In this document: in pieces, positions 36,788 to 46,645 of the stretch
Layout: the number at the start of each line of letters is the position of its first letter
Position numbering within the stretch: position 1 is the first letter of the stretch
Origin: Halostagnicola sp. A-GB9-2
Lineage (GTDB): Archaea > Halobacteriota > Halobacteria > Halobacteriales > Natrialbaceae
Reading direction: 5' to 3'
NCBI RefSeq assembly: GCF_030068615.1
Contig: NZ_JASJOC010000001.1
Location: forward strand, 248,001 to 312,000
DNA: 64,000 bases
Notes under the pieces: model-generated
The model's database searches: none
What the model was told of the DNA's origin: nothing
Seen by the model: the letters and a program-made list of their open reading frames with translations, nothing else
Position numbers and translations under genes: made by a program

Positions 36788-38131
36788 ATGCCTAAAAGCG
36801 ATCCCGTTACGGTTGGGGTGCTCAGCCTTCACACGAGCAAGGAGACGAAAGCGATACTCAACGCCGTCGAAGCGCTCGGTCACGACACGGAGTGGCTTCG
36901 CGAAGAAAATACGAGCGTTCGCGTCGAGGACGGCACCATCTTTCTCGAGCCCGATGTCGACGTTATTGCAAATCGGATGTTACTTTCGAATACCGAACAG
37001 CCCTGCGAAGAGCTCGGACTCGTCAATACGTTCTCGCAACTGGTTCCGATGCTCAACGAGCCAGGGCCAGTACTCACGGCGGTCCACAAACTCTCAACTG
37101 CTGGCGCGCTCGCGACGAACGGCATTCGCGTTCCCGACGTGTTGCTCGCACTCAACAGCGATCAACTCAACGACTCGAGACAGCAGTACGGCGACGAAGC
37201 AGTCTACAAGACGGCGATCGGAACCCACGGCGGCGGTACCTGGAAAGTCGGACCCAACGACGTCATCAACGCCAAAGTTGGCAACCGATACGCGTTCTTG
37301 CAGGAACTCATCGACCGGGACGACCAACGCCACCGCGACGTCCGAATCTACGTCGTCGGTGGCGAAATCATCGGGGCGATGTATCGGTATGCGCCCGATA
37401 ACGACTGGCGGACCAACGTCGCACTGGGCGGTGCAGTCGAGGACGCCACGGAAGAACTCCCCGAGAGCGCCCGCGAGATAGCCAGACAGTCCGCGGCCGC
37501 GATCGGTCTCGATTACGCCGGCGTCGACCTCGTCGAAGGCGAGAACGGCTGGTTCGTCCTCGAGGTCAACCCGACGGCCGGTTTCAAGGGGCTGTACGAA
37601 GCGACACACGTCAGCCCGGCACCCTACATCGCGAAACTCGCCATCGAACACGCGGGTGGTTCCGTCGACGATGATCGAGTCGCGGAGCTCGCCGGAACGC
37701 TCGATGACTCCCAGCCGCTGGCGCGTCCCCCCGAGCAGGCGATGGTCAACGACAAACCGGCCACCATCGGCTACACGGAGGAAATCGTCCTCTCGGGAAC
37801 CAGCGGCTCGGAATCGGTCCTCGCCAAGTCAGACACGGGCGCGACCAGAACCAGCATCGATACGAGTCTCGCCGCCGACATCGGCGCAGGACCGATCAAG
37901 TCGGTCACGCGAATCAAATCGGGAAGTTCGAAAACGTCGAAGAGCCGACCCGTCGTCGATATCGTGGTCGGCGTCGGCGGTAACCGCCACACCGTCACCG
38001 CGAGCGTCGAAGACCGGAGCCACATGGACTACCCCGTTTTGCTCGGGCGCGACATTCTCGAGAACTACCGCGTCGACGTGAGCAAACGCGTCGATCGCGA
38101 CGTGGCCGATACGCCCGAAGAGGAAGAATAA
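36788..38131 (+). CDS. RimK-type ATP-grasp ligase fused to RimB-like retropepsin domain
   Basis: Residues 1 to about 290 are an ATP-grasp enzyme of the RimK/LysX type: a pre-ATP-grasp lobe (VTVGVLSLHTSKETKAILNA), then VYKTAIGTHGGGTWKVGPND, RDVRIYVVGGEIIGAMYRYA and the Mg-binding WFVLEVNPTAGFKGLYEAT. Residues about 315-440 are a second domain, IGYTEEIVLSGTSGSESVLA then KSDTGATRTSI and YPVLLGRDILENYRVDVSK, which is the RimB (DUF785) fold with the DTGA motif of retropepsins. A RimK ligase would add Glu-type residues to a protein C-terminus and the RimB part would cut them. One chain with both activities is the notable point. Confidence 0.88.
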   Translation: MPKSDPVTVGVLSLHTSKETKAILNAVEALGHDTEWLREENTSVRVEDGTIFLEPDVDVIANRMLLSNTEQPCEELGLVNTFSQLVPMLNEPGPVLTAVHKLSTAGALATNGIRVPDVLLALNSDQLNDSRQQYGDEAVYKTAIGTHGGGTWKVGPNDVINAKVGNRYAFLQELIDRDDQRHRDVRIYVVGGEIIGAMYRYAPDNDWRTNVALGGAVEDATEELPESAREIARQSAAAIGLDYAGVDLVEGENGWFVLEVNPTAGFKGLYEATHVSPAPYIAKLAIEHAGGSVDDDRVAELAGTLDDSQPLARPPEQAMVNDKPATIGYTEEIVLSGTSGSESVLAKSDTGATRTSIDTSLAADIGAGPIKSVTRIKSGSSKTSKSRPVVDIVVGVGGNRHTVTASVEDRSHMDYPVLLGRDILENYRVDVSKRVDRDVADTPEEEE

Positions 38132-38350
38132 CGCGTAACCACGTCGATTGTGCGAGATCGATTGGGGACATCGACTGCGAGACTTCGCCCTCAAAAGCGA
38201 AAGCTCGAGAGAGCGCTCCCCCAATCGTTCATCGCTTTCTGACTCCCGCTCGTTTCGATTCACGCCACCTCCACTCCCCTCACTGATTGATCACCAAGCA
38301 CTGTTATTGCGTTCGAAAGCACAGAGTACGAATGCGTGAGTGATCGACGA

Positions 38351-41038
38351 ATGGAGTGTAACCGCTGTCTCCTGTGTGGAACTGCACTGGAGAGTCCATC
38401 CACCGATCCGCCGGACGAGCTATCCACAGATCCGTCGGACGACCTATCCACCGATTCCCTCGGCACCCCTTCAACCGAAGCGGGTTCGGACGACGCGTTC
38501 TGTTCGTCCGGCTGTAGCGACGTCTACGACGTACTCGGTGCGCCCACTGGTACTCCTCACAACGCCTCCGCTAACCGCAATCTCGCCGTCGGCGAGGATT
38601 CGGCAGCCTCCCGGAACGACGGTGAGACAGCTTCTCAGGGCGACGACGATCAGCCGGACTCTCAGGGCGAGGATTCAGGAGCATCGAACGATCGACAAGC
38701 GACCGAAATCGTTCGAACGTTCTTCCGTGTCGACGGCATGCACTCTGTGACCTGTGAAGCGTTCTTAGAATCAACCGCCGGGGCACGCGACGGCGTCGAG
38801 CGCGTCGCCGCGAGTTACGTTACGGAAACGGTACGGGTCGATCACGATCCCGAGCGCATCTCGGAAACCGAACTGCAGAACGCGCTGAGTAGGGTCGGCT
38901 ATACCGCATACCTTCGATCGGACATAACGGGCAAAGGAGACAAAAGACAGCGTTCGAGCGAGGAGGGAGAGACCGCGACAGGTACAACTCAGCGCTCGAG
39001 GGAAATGACCGGCCTCCGGAAACGCCGGACCGATGACATGCTCGAGATACGCTACATCGTGGGCGTCGTGTTCGGAACGTTCCTGTTGGTTCCCTACGTC
39101 GCGATCTTGTACCCGGTGTATCTCGCGTCTATCACCGATTGGGGGATGCTGTCCCTGTACGAAGGCGCCTTTGAGAACCTCGAGGGGTTGTTGTTTCTCC
39201 CCCTGTTTTTCGTGTTGACGGCTGCCGTCCTCTACTTGACCGGAATGCCCCTTCTGCGCGGTTCGTACATCAGTCTAAGACTGAGACGACCGAATACGCA
39301 CCTGCTCGCGGCACTCACGATAACCTGTGCGTACATCTATGGCACACTCTCCTTTTTGCTCGGCGGGAACGACGTCTACTACGATCTGACGATCATCGTC
39401 GCAGCCGTGATAATGGCCGCGGTTTTCTACGAGGCGACGGTCAAGCGGCGAGCGATCGATCGCCTCACCGATCTCACGATTTCACAGGTTGAGGAGGCCC
39501 GTTTGCTCGAATCGAGCGGAACGAGCAAGGTCCCCGTCGAGGAACTCGAGTCCAGTGATCGAGTGCTCGTTCGACGAGGAGAACGGATCCCGGTCGACGG
39601 CGTACTGCTCGAGAGCGCGTGTACGGTTGATGAAGCGATCGTCACCGGCGAATCGGTCCCGGTTTCGAAAGCGCCCGGAGAACGCGTCATCGGCGGCTCG
39701 GTCGTCACGAACGACGCCGCGGTTGTTCGGGTGGGAGAGCAGACGACGAGTAGCATCGATCGACTAACCCGAGTCGTCTGGAACGTCCAAAGCGCGGATC
39801 ACGGCGTCCAGCGACGCGGTGACCACCTTGCCGGACTCTTCGTTCCGGTCGTCTGTGGCGCTGCGGCCGTCGTGGGTGCGACGCTGTTCGTTCTCGAAGC
39901 GAGTCCGGTGACGATCGCGATGAGCGTTCTCCTGACAGTTATCGTCTCGAGTCCGTGGGCGATCGGGTTCGCGACGCCGGTTTCGGTCGCCTCGAGCATC
40001 CGAGACGCGATGGACCGAGGGATCGTCGTCTTCGACGAGACCGTCTTCGAACGGCTTCGGGCCGTCGACATCGTCGTCTTCGACAAAACGGGAACGCTCA
40101 CGACGGGCAAGATGACCGTTCTCGAGGCAGACGCTCCCGAAGACGTACTGGAAGCTGCCGGGCTGGTAGAACGGCGGGCATCGCACCCGGCAGCGGCGGC
40201 TATCGAGGCCGAGTTCGCGGTGAGGCCGATACCTCGAGAAGACGCCTCGAAACGGCCCGACGGCGGCTTTACGGACGAGCGATCGAACGAAAACGAACGC
40301 CGAGTTCGCGACTTTCGAAGCCACGATACCGGCGTCGAGGGAACTGTCGACGGACGCGCGGTACTCGTCGGCCATCCTGCACTCTTTCGGGAACGGGGAT
40401 GGGACCTCGACGATCGACTCTGCGCCCGAGTCTCGAGCGCCCGAGAATTCGGGCGACTCCCGGTCGTCGTCGGGACCGACGGGCGTGCAGACGGCGTCGT
40501 GATCGTCGGCGACGAACCGAGGAACGAGTGGGACGAAACGGTCACCGAACTGAACGATAATGGCGTTGAGGTCGTGGTCCTCACCGGGGACGACGAAACG
40601 GCGACCGACTTCTTCGATCGTCATCCGGGTGTCGATCGGGTGTTCACGGGCGTTCCGCCGGCCGGAAAGACGGCGACGATCCGGTGTCTGAACGGCGAGA
40701 ACCGCGTGGCCATGGTCGGAGACGGAACGAACGACGCCCCGGCGCTCGCCGAGGCCGACCTCGGCATCGCGCTGGGGAGCGGTACCGCGCTGGCCTCCGA
40801 CGCGGCGGATTTGGCGATCGTCGACGACGATCTCACCGCTGTCGAGCGGGCGTTCGCCCTGTCGACCGCCGCACGCCGGCGCGTCACGCAGAACCTCGGG
40901 CTGGCGCTGGTCTACAACGCGCTTGTGATCCCTCTGGCGGTAATGGGAGTGCTGAACCCGCTGTTCGCGACTGTTGCCGTGGCTACGAGCAGTCTCCTCA
41001 TCGTTGCGAACTCGTCGCGTCCCCTTATCGACGAGTAG
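38351..41038 (+). CDS. P1B-type ATPase, FixI-like, with SPW in place of CPC
   Basis: An 895-residue ATPase (a GTG five codons upstream is an alternative start). The N-terminus has CNRCLLCG and FCSSGCSDVYDVL, the Cys-rich module of FixI/CcoI copper ATPases, separated by a Ser/Thr/Asp/Pro repeat. A degenerate HMA domain follows (FRVDGMHSVTCEAFLES). TGES (VTGESVPVSK), DKTGTLTTG with the phosphorylated Asp, an HP motif (ASHPAAAAIE) and GDGTNDAPALAEAD are intact, so ATP hydrolysis should work. The membrane CPC metal motif reads SSPWAIG (Ser534-Pro535-Trp536). TM7 keeps YN. The metal and direction of transport cannot be read. Confidence 0.85.
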   Translation: MECNRCLLCGTALESPSTDPPDELSTDPSDDLSTDSLGTPSTEAGSDDAFCSSGCSDVYDVLGAPTGTPHNASANRNLAVGEDSAASRNDGETASQGDDDQPDSQGEDSGASNDRQATEIVRTFFRVDGMHSVTCEAFLESTAGARDGVERVAASYVTETVRVDHDPERISETELQNALSRVGYTAYLRSDITGKGDKRQRSSEEGETATGTTQRSREMTGLRKRRTDDMLEIRYIVGVVFGTFLLVPYVAILYPVYLASITDWGMLSLYEGAFENLEGLLFLPLFFVLTAAVLYLTGMPLLRGSYISLRLRRPNTHLLAALTITCAYIYGTLSFLLGGNDVYYDLTIIVAAVIMAAVFYEATVKRRAIDRLTDLTISQVEEARLLESSGTSKVPVEELESSDRVLVRRGERIPVDGVLLESACTVDEAIVTGESVPVSKAPGERVIGGSVVTNDAAVVRVGEQTTSSIDRLTRVVWNVQSADHGVQRRGDHLAGLFVPVVCGAAAVVGATLFVLEASPVTIAMSVLLTVIVSSPWAIGFATPVSVASSIRDAMDRGIVVFDETVFERLRAVDIVVFDKTGTLTTGKMTVLEADAPEDVLEAAGLVERRASHPAAAAIEAEFAVRPIPREDASKRPDGGFTDERSNENERRVRDFRSHDTGVEGTVDGRAVLVGHPALFRERGWDLDDRLCARVSSAREFGRLPVVVGTDGRADGVVIVGDEPRNEWDETVTELNDNGVEVVVLTGDDETATDFFDRHPGVDRVFTGVPPAGKTATIRCLNGENRVAMVGDGTNDAPALAEADLGIALGSGTALASDAADLAIVDDDLTAVERAFALSTAARRRVTQNLGLALVYNALVIPLAVMGVLNPLFATVAVATSSLLIVANSSRPLIDE

Positions 41039-43028: not shown

Positions 43029-45719
43029 TTATTCGTCTCCTCGTGTTTCGGCCTCGCCTTCCGGCCCGAACTCGGCATCCGCGTGAGTGCTCCCGAATTC
43101 GGCTTCGGCCGCCGCGGGTTCCTCGCGTGCGAGCCGCATCGCGTTGCCGGTTACGCCGAGGCTCATCCCCATGTCGCCGATGACGACGGCGTGGATGACG
43201 GTGACGATGCCGAACGGCGCACCGGCCGCGAGCACCGCTTTCACGCCGAGGCTCGCCCAGATGTTCTGTCGGATGACGTCGTTTGCCTTCCCCGACAGTC
43301 TGTAGAGGTACGGAAGCCGCGTCAGATCGTCGCTCATCAGCGCGATATCGGCGGTCTCGAGCGCTGTATCCGTTCCCGCCGCACCCATGGCGATGCCGGT
43401 CGTCGCCGTCGCGAGCGCCGGCCCGTCGTTGATGCCGTCCCCGACCATCGCGACGCTCCTCGAGAACGATGAGGCCGAAACCTCACCAGCGTCTCCAGCG
43501 ACAGCGTTCGCCTCGAGGCGTTCGTCCGGCTCCGCGTCACCGTCCCCTTTGAGGCGTCGGATCCACTCGAGTTTCTCCTCGGGCATGAGTTCGGCGTGGT
43601 ACTCGTCGATTCCGACCTCGCCGGCGATCGCCCGCGCGGTTCCCTCGTTATCTCCGGTGAGCATCACTACCCTAATTCCCTGCTCTTGTAACTGCGAAAC
43701 GGCCCACGACGCCTCCGGCCGGACCTGATCCGCGACGGCGACTACTCCGAGCGGTCCGTCTTCCGTCCCCACGACGACGACGGTCTTTCCGTCCGCCTCG
43801 AGTTTCGGGACGACCTCGGAGAGGACATCGAGGCAATCCTCTCGATCGCAGCTAGGGATCGATTCGTGGTCCCACTCGGCTCGTTCCGGTTCCGACTCGA
43901 GGACGGTTCCGCCATCCGTCGCGTGGACGTGCTCGAGATCAGCCAGTCCGTCGAAGAGATCCGGTTTTCCGACGTAGTGCGTGACGCCCTCGAGATCTGC
44001 GCGAACTCCTCGTCCGGTAAGGGCCTCGAAGTTCGAGACCGCGAACTCGTCGGAGCTATCGGGTTCGTCGCCGATAGCGTCGGACGCCAGCCCGCGTTCT
44101 TCCGCAGCCCCGACGATCGCTTCACCGACGGGGTGCTCGCTCCGCCGTTCGATAGCGCCAGCGCGGGCGAGGACGTCGTCTTCGTCCGCCCCCTCGAGCG
44201 GGATCACGTCGGTGACGTTCAGTTCGCCGGTCGTGAGCGTTCCCGTCTTGTCCACCGCGAGGATCTCGCTTTCGCCGACCGCCTCGAGGTGACGCCCGCC
44301 CTTGATTAGCACGCCGTTTCTGGCGGCGCTCGTGATCCCCGAGACGACGCTGACGGGCGTGCTGATGACGAACGCACAGGGACAGGCGATGACCAGCAGG
44401 GTGAGTCCGCGCAGGAACCAGGTGTTCCAGGACGCCCCGACCAGCAGCGGCGGGAGCGCGGCGACGGCGACCGCGAGCACGACCACGATGGGCGTGTAGA
44501 CGCTGGCGAAGCGATCGACGAACTGCTCGCGTTTGGTCGACTCGCGTTCGGCGTCCTCGACCATCCGAACGATTCGGGCGATGGTCGAATCGTCGGCCTC
44601 GCTCTCGACCGCTACCTCGAGGTAACCCGATTCGGCGATAGTTCCGGCGTAGACCTCCTCGCCCGCGGTCTTATCGACGGGGACGCTCTCGCCGGTAATC
44701 GGCGACTGGTCGACCGCGCTCTGGCCGTCGGTAACCGCGCCGTCGGCCGGGATCTTCTCTCCCGGCTTGACGACGACGGTGTCGCCGATTTCGAGCGAAT
44801 CCACCGCGACGACTTCCTCCGTGCCGTCCTCCCGACGAACGGTCGCCGTCTCCGGCGAGAGGTTCATCAACTCCCGAAGGGAGTCTCGTGCCCGGTCCAT
44901 CGAGAACCGCTCGAGGAGCTCTGCAACGGAGAACAACACGGCGAGCATCGCGCCCTCAAAGGGATGGTGGGCCGCGACGCTGGCGACGATACCGACGCTC
45001 ATCAGGAAGTCGATATCGAGGCTCCGATTGCGCGCGGAGTAGTAGCCGTTTCGCAAGATCGGAACGCCAGCGACGGCGACCGCGCCGATGAACAGCGCTT
45101 CAGAGAGTCCGTAGGTCCGGCCGAACGCGGTGATAAGGGCCGGATCAAGCGCGGGAAGAAGGAACTCCAGTACCATCCCGACCGCGACGAAGACGGCACC
45201 GACGGCGGTTCCGAGCGCCCGCCGACTTCGCCACACCGCTCGAGACTCGACGACCCCATCGTCTCCGTCCTCGATCGGTTTTCCCTCGTACCCAGCGTCG
45301 TCGATGGCGTCGATAACGACTGGCATCTCGAGGTCGGATACACCGGACACCGTCACGCGCCCGGAGGCTGGCCGCGTTTCGATTTCTTCGATGGAGTCGA
45401 CGCGCTCGAGCGCGTTTTCGACTTTGTTCGCACAGGAGGCACAGTCCATGTCCGGAACCGAGACGGTGAACTCGGTCTCGTCGTCGGCAATAGCGTAGCC
45501 GGCGGCCCGCACGCGGGCCCGAATATCGTCCTCGCTCGCGAGTTCCGGATCGTACTCGACGACGAGTCGGCCGCTCGTTACCTGCGGTTCGATCGCCTCG
45601 ATTCCCTCGAGGCGTTCGATACTGTTCGTTACCTTCCCGGCACAGGACGGACAGTCCATCTCGGGAACCCGACATTCGAGGGTCATCCTCGAGGTCGGCG
45701 ACGTGGAAGGGTCACTCAT
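43029..45719 (-). CDS. Zn/Cd-type P1B-2 ATPase (ZntA-like)
   Basis: The 896-residue pump has two HMA domains with intact pairs (PEMDCPSCAGKV and PDMDCASCANKV). CPCAFVISTPVSVVSG, DKTGTLTTGELNV, TGESVPVDKT, an HP motif (RRSEHPVGEA) and GDGINDGPALATA are complete. A Lys in TM7 (GVKAVLAAGAPF) and an Asp in the last membrane helix (VIGDMGMSLGVTGNAMRL) are the P1B-2 signature for Zn, Cd and Pb, so it most likely exports divalent soft metals. A 40-residue insert in the nucleotide domain holds HESIPSCDREDC, an additional candidate metal site. An HTH_10 gene lies directly upstream on the same strand. Confidence 0.93.
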   Translation of the reverse strand: MSDPSTSPTSRMTLECRVPEMDCPSCAGKVTNSIERLEGIEAIEPQVTSGRLVVEYDPELASEDDIRARVRAAGYAIADDETEFTVSVPDMDCASCANKVENALERVDSIEEIETRPASGRVTVSGVSDLEMPVVIDAIDDAGYEGKPIEDGDDGVVESRAVWRSRRALGTAVGAVFVAVGMVLEFLLPALDPALITAFGRTYGLSEALFIGAVAVAGVPILRNGYYSARNRSLDIDFLMSVGIVASVAAHHPFEGAMLAVLFSVAELLERFSMDRARDSLRELMNLSPETATVRREDGTEEVVAVDSLEIGDTVVVKPGEKIPADGAVTDGQSAVDQSPITGESVPVDKTAGEEVYAGTIAESGYLEVAVESEADDSTIARIVRMVEDAERESTKREQFVDRFASVYTPIVVVLAVAVAALPPLLVGASWNTWFLRGLTLLVIACPCAFVISTPVSVVSGITSAARNGVLIKGGRHLEAVGESEILAVDKTGTLTTGELNVTDVIPLEGADEDDVLARAGAIERRSEHPVGEAIVGAAEERGLASDAIGDEPDSSDEFAVSNFEALTGRGVRADLEGVTHYVGKPDLFDGLADLEHVHATDGGTVLESEPERAEWDHESIPSCDREDCLDVLSEVVPKLEADGKTVVVVGTEDGPLGVVAVADQVRPEASWAVSQLQEQGIRVVMLTGDNEGTARAIAGEVGIDEYHAELMPEEKLEWIRRLKGDGDAEPDERLEANAVAGDAGEVSASSFSRSVAMVGDGINDGPALATATTGIAMGAAGTDTALETADIALMSDDLTRLPYLYRLSGKANDVIRQNIWASLGVKAVLAAGAPFGIVTVIHAVVIGDMGMSLGVTGNAMRLAREEPAAAEAEFGSTHADAEFGPEGEAETRGDE

Positions 45720-45749
45720 CACGTCATCCTAAGTGACGGTAGTGGATAG

Positions 45750-45840: not shown

Positions 45841-46587
45841 TCAAATTTCGGGTGTGAGCGCCTCGATCGAGGCGTCGGCGTCGACGAACGTCGTCGCAAG
45901 TGCGGCTTCGGCTCGTCGAAGGCGGTAGGACAGCGTCGACCGCGGGATATCCAATTTCGTCGCGAGTTCCGAGAGTTCGATCTGTCGAGGCGTCTCGTAG
46001 TAGCCGTACTCGACGGCCGCCCGAAGCGCAGACTGCTGTGCGTCGGGCAACGAGGTTTCGGGGTCGGCTTTGGCACGTTCGGGATCGACCTCCGTCAACC
46101 GAATCATCTCCATGCCCGTACACTCGCCGACTTCCTCGCCGAGCGCGTCGAAAAAGGCGTGAACCGACGCGTCGCTCGAGAGAACGATGCGCCACCGGTA
46201 GCGTCGCCCCTCGCGGTAGGTCTCGAAGAGGAGCCCCTCTCCGAGATACTCGAGCGCCAAATGCGGGATCGACGTACAGACCGGCGTTCGATCCCAGTAG
46301 GTGTAGACGACGAGCGTCTCGTTCGAGCGATCGAGGACCTGCGTCTCACACTCCGCACCGCAGTCGTCTTTGACCAGACAGTCCGCGAAGTAGGTCGCGT
46401 CGCGGTAGGCTTCCTCGAGTTCCTCGAGGGCCTCCGGCGATCCCGTCGCGTGATCAACTCGCCAGAGGCTATCTGGGGTGACGTGACACGAAAGCGAACG
46501 GATCGACGTGTCAGGATTGGCCGCGAGCACGTCCGCAACCGGATTCGTGTCCGGTTCGTACTCGAGGGCGAAGACAAATTCTCGCAT
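45841..46587 (-). CDS. HTH_10 (bacterio-opsin activator type) regulator
   Basis: The start is the ATG giving MREFVFALEYEPDTNPVADV. Residues 1-180 form the alpha/beta sensor region seen in this family, and the C-terminus has HTH_10: LPDAQQSALRAAVEYGYYET, then LATKLDIPRSTLSYRLRRAE. Cys occurs in the N-terminal half (FADCLVKDDCGAEC), which could bind a metal. The gene lies upstream of the ZntA-type ATPase on the same strand and a palindrome lies between them, so it probably controls that pump in response to metal. Confidence 0.82.
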   Translation of the reverse strand: MREFVFALEYEPDTNPVADVLAANPDTSIRSLSCHVTPDSLWRVDHATGSPEALEELEEAYRDATYFADCLVKDDCGAECETQVLDRSNETLVVYTYWDRTPVCTSIPHLALEYLGEGLLFETYREGRRYRWRIVLSSDASVHAFFDALGEEVGECTGMEMIRLTEVDPERAKADPETSLPDAQQSALRAAVEYGYYETPRQIELSELATKLDIPRSTLSYRLRRAEAALATTFVDADASIEALTPEI

Positions 46588-46645
46588 ACCCACTCGTAGG
46601 GGCCGACGGGAAAAAGGGTTCCCGGTGGTCGTCGTAGTAGGAGGT

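Follow-up and report, generated by a model that had tools for sequence, protein, structure and literature searches.

Haloarchaea carry a widespread and conserved relative of the copper pumps in which a fixed tryptophan takes the place of the second cysteine of the CPC metal motif. The member considered here is encoded in a window of 64,000 nucleotides from Halostagnicola sp. A-GB9-2; it and the haloarchaeal relatives that share its tryptophan are here called the PW clade. The best explanation of the family as a whole, to which we give about an even chance, is a pump repurposed from a CcoI/CopA2-like branch.

The protein and its altered metal sites

The gene lies on the forward strand at 38351..41038, stop included, and encodes a P1B-like ATPase of 895 amino acids. 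Its ATG is at 38351, coding extends to 41035 and the stop occupies 41036-41038; an in-frame GTG occurs at 38336, 15 bases upstream of the ATG. Pfam recognises E1-E2_ATPase, Hydrolase and HMA domains (HMA at 2.6e-10), and in NCBIfam the protein passes the general heavy-metal model TIGR01525 (410 bits, cut-off 346) and falls short of the models for copper, TIGR01511 (360, cut-off 397), and for cadmium, TIGR01512 (290.6, cut-off 313.5). The P-type core (DKTGT, TGES, GDGxNDxP) and the P1B-specific HP are all present, as an earlier note made from the DNA alone had claimed for the catalytic machinery: TGES is kept at residues 432-435 (39644..39655), the DKTGT phosphorylation motif is at 578-582 (40082..40096), HP at 612-613 (40184..40189) and the hinge motif GDGTNDAP at 790-797 (40718..40741). 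The same note had described a Cys-rich, FixI-like N-terminus and a single Cys in the HMA domain, and this description holds; the protein is FixI/CcoI-like. Comparison with relatives gives an N-terminal cluster of C6, C9, C51 and C55 (38366..38515), with Ser at position 52 where CPC relatives have Cys, and the HMA domain (residues 125-190, 38723..38920; Pfam and alignment) reads GMHSVTCE and so has only C135.

In transmembrane helix M4, residues 533-536 are S-S-P-W (39947-39958), where Cu and Zn pumps have SCPC, and S534-P535-W536 (39950..39958) replaces CPC in sequence and alignment; both metal-binding Cys are gone, as had been noted. The relatives collected from genome contigs and genomes comprise 72 distinct haloarchaeal PW sequences and 12 CPC relatives. 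Trp is found at the second CPC position in all 72, which come from many genera, the motif being SPW in 60, CPW in 10, TPW in one and NPW in one, and all 12 CPC relatives have CPC; the change is a conserved family trait. The metal-ligating Cys that P1B pumps carry beside the Pro of M4 (at least one) is absent from the window SPW and present in 10/72 relatives, and the CPC of ZntA-type (P1B-2) pumps is likewise missing. A strict DNA pattern (PWA[LI][GA][LF]A[TA]P) matches 102/391 Halobacteria genomes and 26/86 genera, with seven matches for its reversed control; the count is a lower bound, because known members in genomes G122, G111 and G011 escape it, and in the subset of matches compared with fetched relatives the pattern fell inside the ATPase. 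Among 311 genomes sampled from the rest of the phylum (non-Halobacteria), two exact DNA patterns for the motif find no match. The two findings that the earlier note had named as fatal, a sequencing error at 39947-39958 and an isolated substitution, are ruled out by the recurrence of W536 in 72/72 distinct relatives and of the pattern in 102/391 genomes. One genome, G120, holds three different PW ATPases (L065, L066 and L067, with SPW, SPW and CPW, respectively).

The changes extend beyond M4. Residues are numbered here as in the window protein, and their AfCopA equivalents are taken from the alignment and from PMC9433437, in which the Cu(I) residues are M158, C380, C382, YN and M711. C382 corresponds to W536. 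The entry Met M158 corresponds to T316 (39296..39298), a site with T in 62 PW members, A in five, V in two, L in one and a gap in two; M711 corresponds to V877 in M6 (40979..40981), which is Val, Ala or Leu across the clade. Met is absent at both sites in all PW relatives, and the earlier proposal that Cu or Zn may no longer be the cargo is stronger for it. In M5, L851 (40901..40903) occupies a site that is Trp in 12/12 CPC sister sequences and Leu in 68/72 PW members. In the A domain, C424 (39620..39622) is present in 72/72 PW sequences, with Ala or Gly in the CPC sister group. Other residues are kept: E361, the M2 Glu equivalent to AfCopA E205 (39431..39433), and Y855-N856 of M5 (40913..40918) are preserved almost throughout the clade, and the M3 Asp D491, equivalent to D336 (39821..39823), is D in 66, E in three and N in three. 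Most PW members also lack three further Cys, namely the first of CPC, one in the HMA domain and one in the N-terminal region. The HMA CxxC, the N-MBS2 of CopA2/CcoI, is SxxC in the window protein; its first Cys, C132, is found in 5/72 and C135 in 68/72. Of the two transmembrane sites of CopA2/CcoI, TM-MBS1 (CPC in M4) is disrupted by the Trp throughout, and TM-MBS2 keeps N856, lacks Met at 877 and has a variable Ser. The alignment reveals no newly fixed Met or Cys in M4-M6.

An AlphaFold2 model built with 44 clade members (mean pLDDT 80, pTM 0.73) predicts eight transmembrane helices, including MA and MB; M3-M4 are modelled at a pLDDT of about 95-98, and M4 is broken at 534-537, as at CPC. The best solved-structure matches of the model are ATP7B, LpCopA, SsZntA and related Cu and Zn P1B pumps, although a predicted fold shared with P1B pumps is no proof of function. 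The paired change at 536 and 851 suggests that W536 may occupy the room vacated by the Trp of M5.

Descent and genomic setting

In a maximum-likelihood tree of 56 rows, 37 of them PW, computed with the trait columns excluded and by a quick method without a mixture model, a single branch (SH-aLRT 100) separates all 37 PW rows from the rest and places them within the CPC rows. Long outgroup rows are flagged, so the deepest joins are untrustworthy; the PW clade is independent of those joins. This nesting places the PW proteins in common descent with CPC-bearing CopA2/CcoI members, and the best explanation is that the clade arose once, probably from CcoI/CopA2-like Cu(I) pumps. Sites 316, 424, 536, 851 and 877 change once each on the tree, and the first CPC Cys (534) changes five times, the N-terminal Cys52 three times and the HMA Cys132 twice. 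Thus, a single lasting change accounts for each of the two Met and for the second CPC position, whereas the other metal-binding Cys changed repeatedly. The catalytic residues are invariant in the clade, and dN/dS is 0.04-0.33 in 14 close pairs; as far as sequences can tell, every catalytic motif is maintained under purifying selection. Near-identical PW copies in different haloarchaeal families point to probable transfer.

The neighbours in the window are genes for a flippase-like protein, an ATP-grasp/aspartyl-protease fusion, a DNA glycosylase, a YdjM-like protein, a Usp and a ZntA-type pump. The last (43029..45722, reverse strand) offers the contrast that the earlier note had drawn, since it is canonical, with CPC and a score above the TIGR01512 cut-off. 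Directly upstream of it on the same strand, at 45841-46593, is an HVO_2928-type HTH_10 regulator, which may control the pump. The fusion gene, at 36788-38131, encodes a single protein with a RimK-like ATP-grasp domain and, at its C-terminus, a retropepsin-like/Zn_protease (RimB-like) domain. The ZntA-type pump is not a constant neighbour of the PW ATPase: other Natrialbaceae have different neighbours at the PW gene, most chromosomal copies lie in unrelated neighbourhoods that vary between genera, and neighbour clustering of 48 loci finds no gene common to the whole clade.

Plasmid-borne members have a richer setting, and P-type pumps recur near some of them. The island of Haloarcula marismortui pNG600, whose PW ATPase is the CPW protein WP_004594578.1, includes CopZ-like proteins, a CPH-type pump, a plastocyanin-like protein, a multicopper oxidase and COX15; that of Halorubrum pCBA1229 has cox I and II, COX15 and DsbB; that of Natronorubrum daqingense has CcdA, TlpA, SCO and a 4Fe-4S Fer4_5 protein; and Halovenus salina carries another plasmid copper/oxidase island with a PW gene. 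These islands, several of them near copies of one another, repeatedly carry genes for an Rce1-like CAAX protease, a multicopper oxidase, a cupredoxin and one unnamed family. The CAAX-type protease is seen near PW genes in several islands (e.g. L104:22141-22863 and L106:8956-9918), and the unnamed family, for which Pfam gives no match, lies beside plasmid PW copies at L104:16752-17552, L084:8504-9466 and L066:9866-11098. Closely similar CPW ATPases (L088, L089, L091, L094 and L104) occur on plasmids of different haloarchaeal families beside a CPH-type pump, and the HMA CxxC is intact in the two that were checked, L088 and L104. Some CPC relatives, for their part, adjoin genes for a ba3-type (b(o/a)3-type) oxidase, halocyanin and SafE.

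Proposed function and its rivals

Since the membrane sulfur ligands are largely gone and the YN pair, the M2 Glu and the catalytic motifs are kept, copper transport by the known route looks dismantled and the ATPase cycle maintained, a combination that we consider very probable. On a single branch, the entry Met and the M6 Met were removed, Trp replaced the second CPC Cys for good, and Leu took over from the Trp of M5; the first CPC Cys is absent from most lineages. W536 would then fill the former ion site and keep the packing of M4 against M5, so that Cu(I) would be barred from its known path. The protein would still run an ATP-driven E1/E2 cycle, in which a different, non-thiophilic substrate might be moved past E361, D491, Y855 and N856, under the control of the HMA domain and the Cys-rich N-terminus. 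CcoI with a mutated CPC retains about 70% of its ATPase activity yet fails both to move Cu(I) and to sustain the oxidase (PMC8475189), and Ala at the M4-M6 residues of AfCopA abolishes Cu-stimulated ATPase activity (PMC9433437); together, these data indicate that ATP hydrolysis can continue in such a protein even when it carries no copper. That the PW ATPase transports another, non-thiophilic substrate has a chance close to even. Counting against a repurposed pump are the lack of a conserved operon partner indicating the substrate, the plasmid copies among copper and oxidase genes, which would suit a copper-related or regulatory role too, and the 10/72 members that retain one CPC Cys, some of them with a full HMA CxxC.

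The same features can be read as those of an ATP-driven partner or regulator, in which the HMA domain and the Cys-rich N-terminus would sense metal or redox state and the E1/E2 cycle would act on a Cu pump, an oxidase-assembly factor or another membrane protein, with no cargo at all. Each of the four metal sites of CcoI is changed, yet the HMA domain and C135 (68/72) are kept, and the A domain has gained a fixed Cys424; plasmid copies adjoin CopZ-like, CPH-type pump, cupredoxin, multicopper oxidase, SCO, CcdA and oxidase genes, and the persistence of ATP hydrolysis in CcoI without CPC (PMC8475189) fits such a role as well. However, the clade as a whole has no partner gene in common, and chromosomal copies stand alone. 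Furthermore, several genomes (G111, G112, G114 and others) have a PW copy without a second close relative at E 1e-150, so that partnership with a CPC paralogue is not obligatory. A regulatory role is rather unlikely, and we favour the repurposed pump.

A route for Cu(I) or Ag(I) rebuilt from Trp (by cation-pi contact), Asn and Tyr, with one Cys in CPW members, is improbable. It would draw on the retained YN, E361 and, mostly, D491, on the CPW Cys and the HMA CxxC of some members, and on the copper islands of the plasmids; against it, none of the four membrane positions in the window protein still holds Cys or Met, M4-M6 have gained no fixed Met or Cys in exchange, and in AfCopA the loss of the M4-M6 residues to Ala is enough to abolish Cu-stimulated activity (PMC9433437). 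A decaying paralogue or a futile, functionless ATPase is very improbable, for although several metal-binding Cys have been lost, some in parallel lineages (positions 52, 132 and 534), the low dN/dS, the invariant catalytic residues, the Trp and Cys newly fixed in 72 sequences, and the carriage of the gene by many genera and on plasmids all speak against it.

Having shed nearly all its membrane sulfur ligands, fixed a Trp and kept the full ATPase machinery, the PW clade is a natural experiment on the evolution of substrate choice and ATP coupling. More tentatively, it may represent a new functional class of P-type ATPase derived from copper pumps, in which a Trp-lined pocket would move a non-metal (organic or non-thiophilic) substrate or the cycle would drive a partner protein. 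As PW-clade genes are annotated as metal or cation pumps, inventories of metal homeostasis in haloarchaea may overcount metal exporters.

Comparison with known pumps

P1B ATPases are classed by the metal motif of M4. The variants listed in the papers cited here, CPC, CPH, SPC, TPC, CPS and APC, each include a Cys (PMC9045314; PMC8880997). The PW motif resembles them in varying around an invariant Pro; unlike SPC, TPC, CPH, CPS and APC, with at least one Cys each, SPW has none, and Trp stands at the second position. No description of a PW-type P1B ATPase (CPW/SPW motif) was found in the open-access literature, which does not by itself prove novelty, and a search there by title found no paper on the PW gene of Haloarcula pNG600. 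KdpB, of the P1A type, energises a partner channel and is not a plain cation pump; its structural match to the PW ATPase is lower and the comparison is an analogy only, with no KdpA-like partner seen beside PW genes.

The likeness to CopA (AfCopA and LpCopA) lies in the catalytic core and in the fold, the model aligning with VIA-align Z values of 27.0 to 4bbj and 27.1 to 3rfu, whereas the sulfur ligands of the Cu(I) route are absent and the TIGR01511 score stays below threshold. The closest known layout is that of CcoI/CopA2, which combines an N-terminal site containing Cys with the CxxC of the HMA domain, CPC and a site made of Asn, Met and Ser (PMC8475189); some of the haloarchaeal CPC relatives, among which the PW clade nests, have this layout too. 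Like CcoI/FixI pumps (CopA2-type P1B-1), PW proteins have a Cys-rich N-terminus, one HMA domain, eight transmembrane helices, YN and the catalytic motifs; unlike them, they have [S/C/T/N]PW, an HMA motif that is mostly SxxC, no entry or M6 Met, Leu for the M5 Trp, and a new A-domain Cys. Judged by sequence, the PW clade descends from CcoI-type pumps but lacks their metal-site features.
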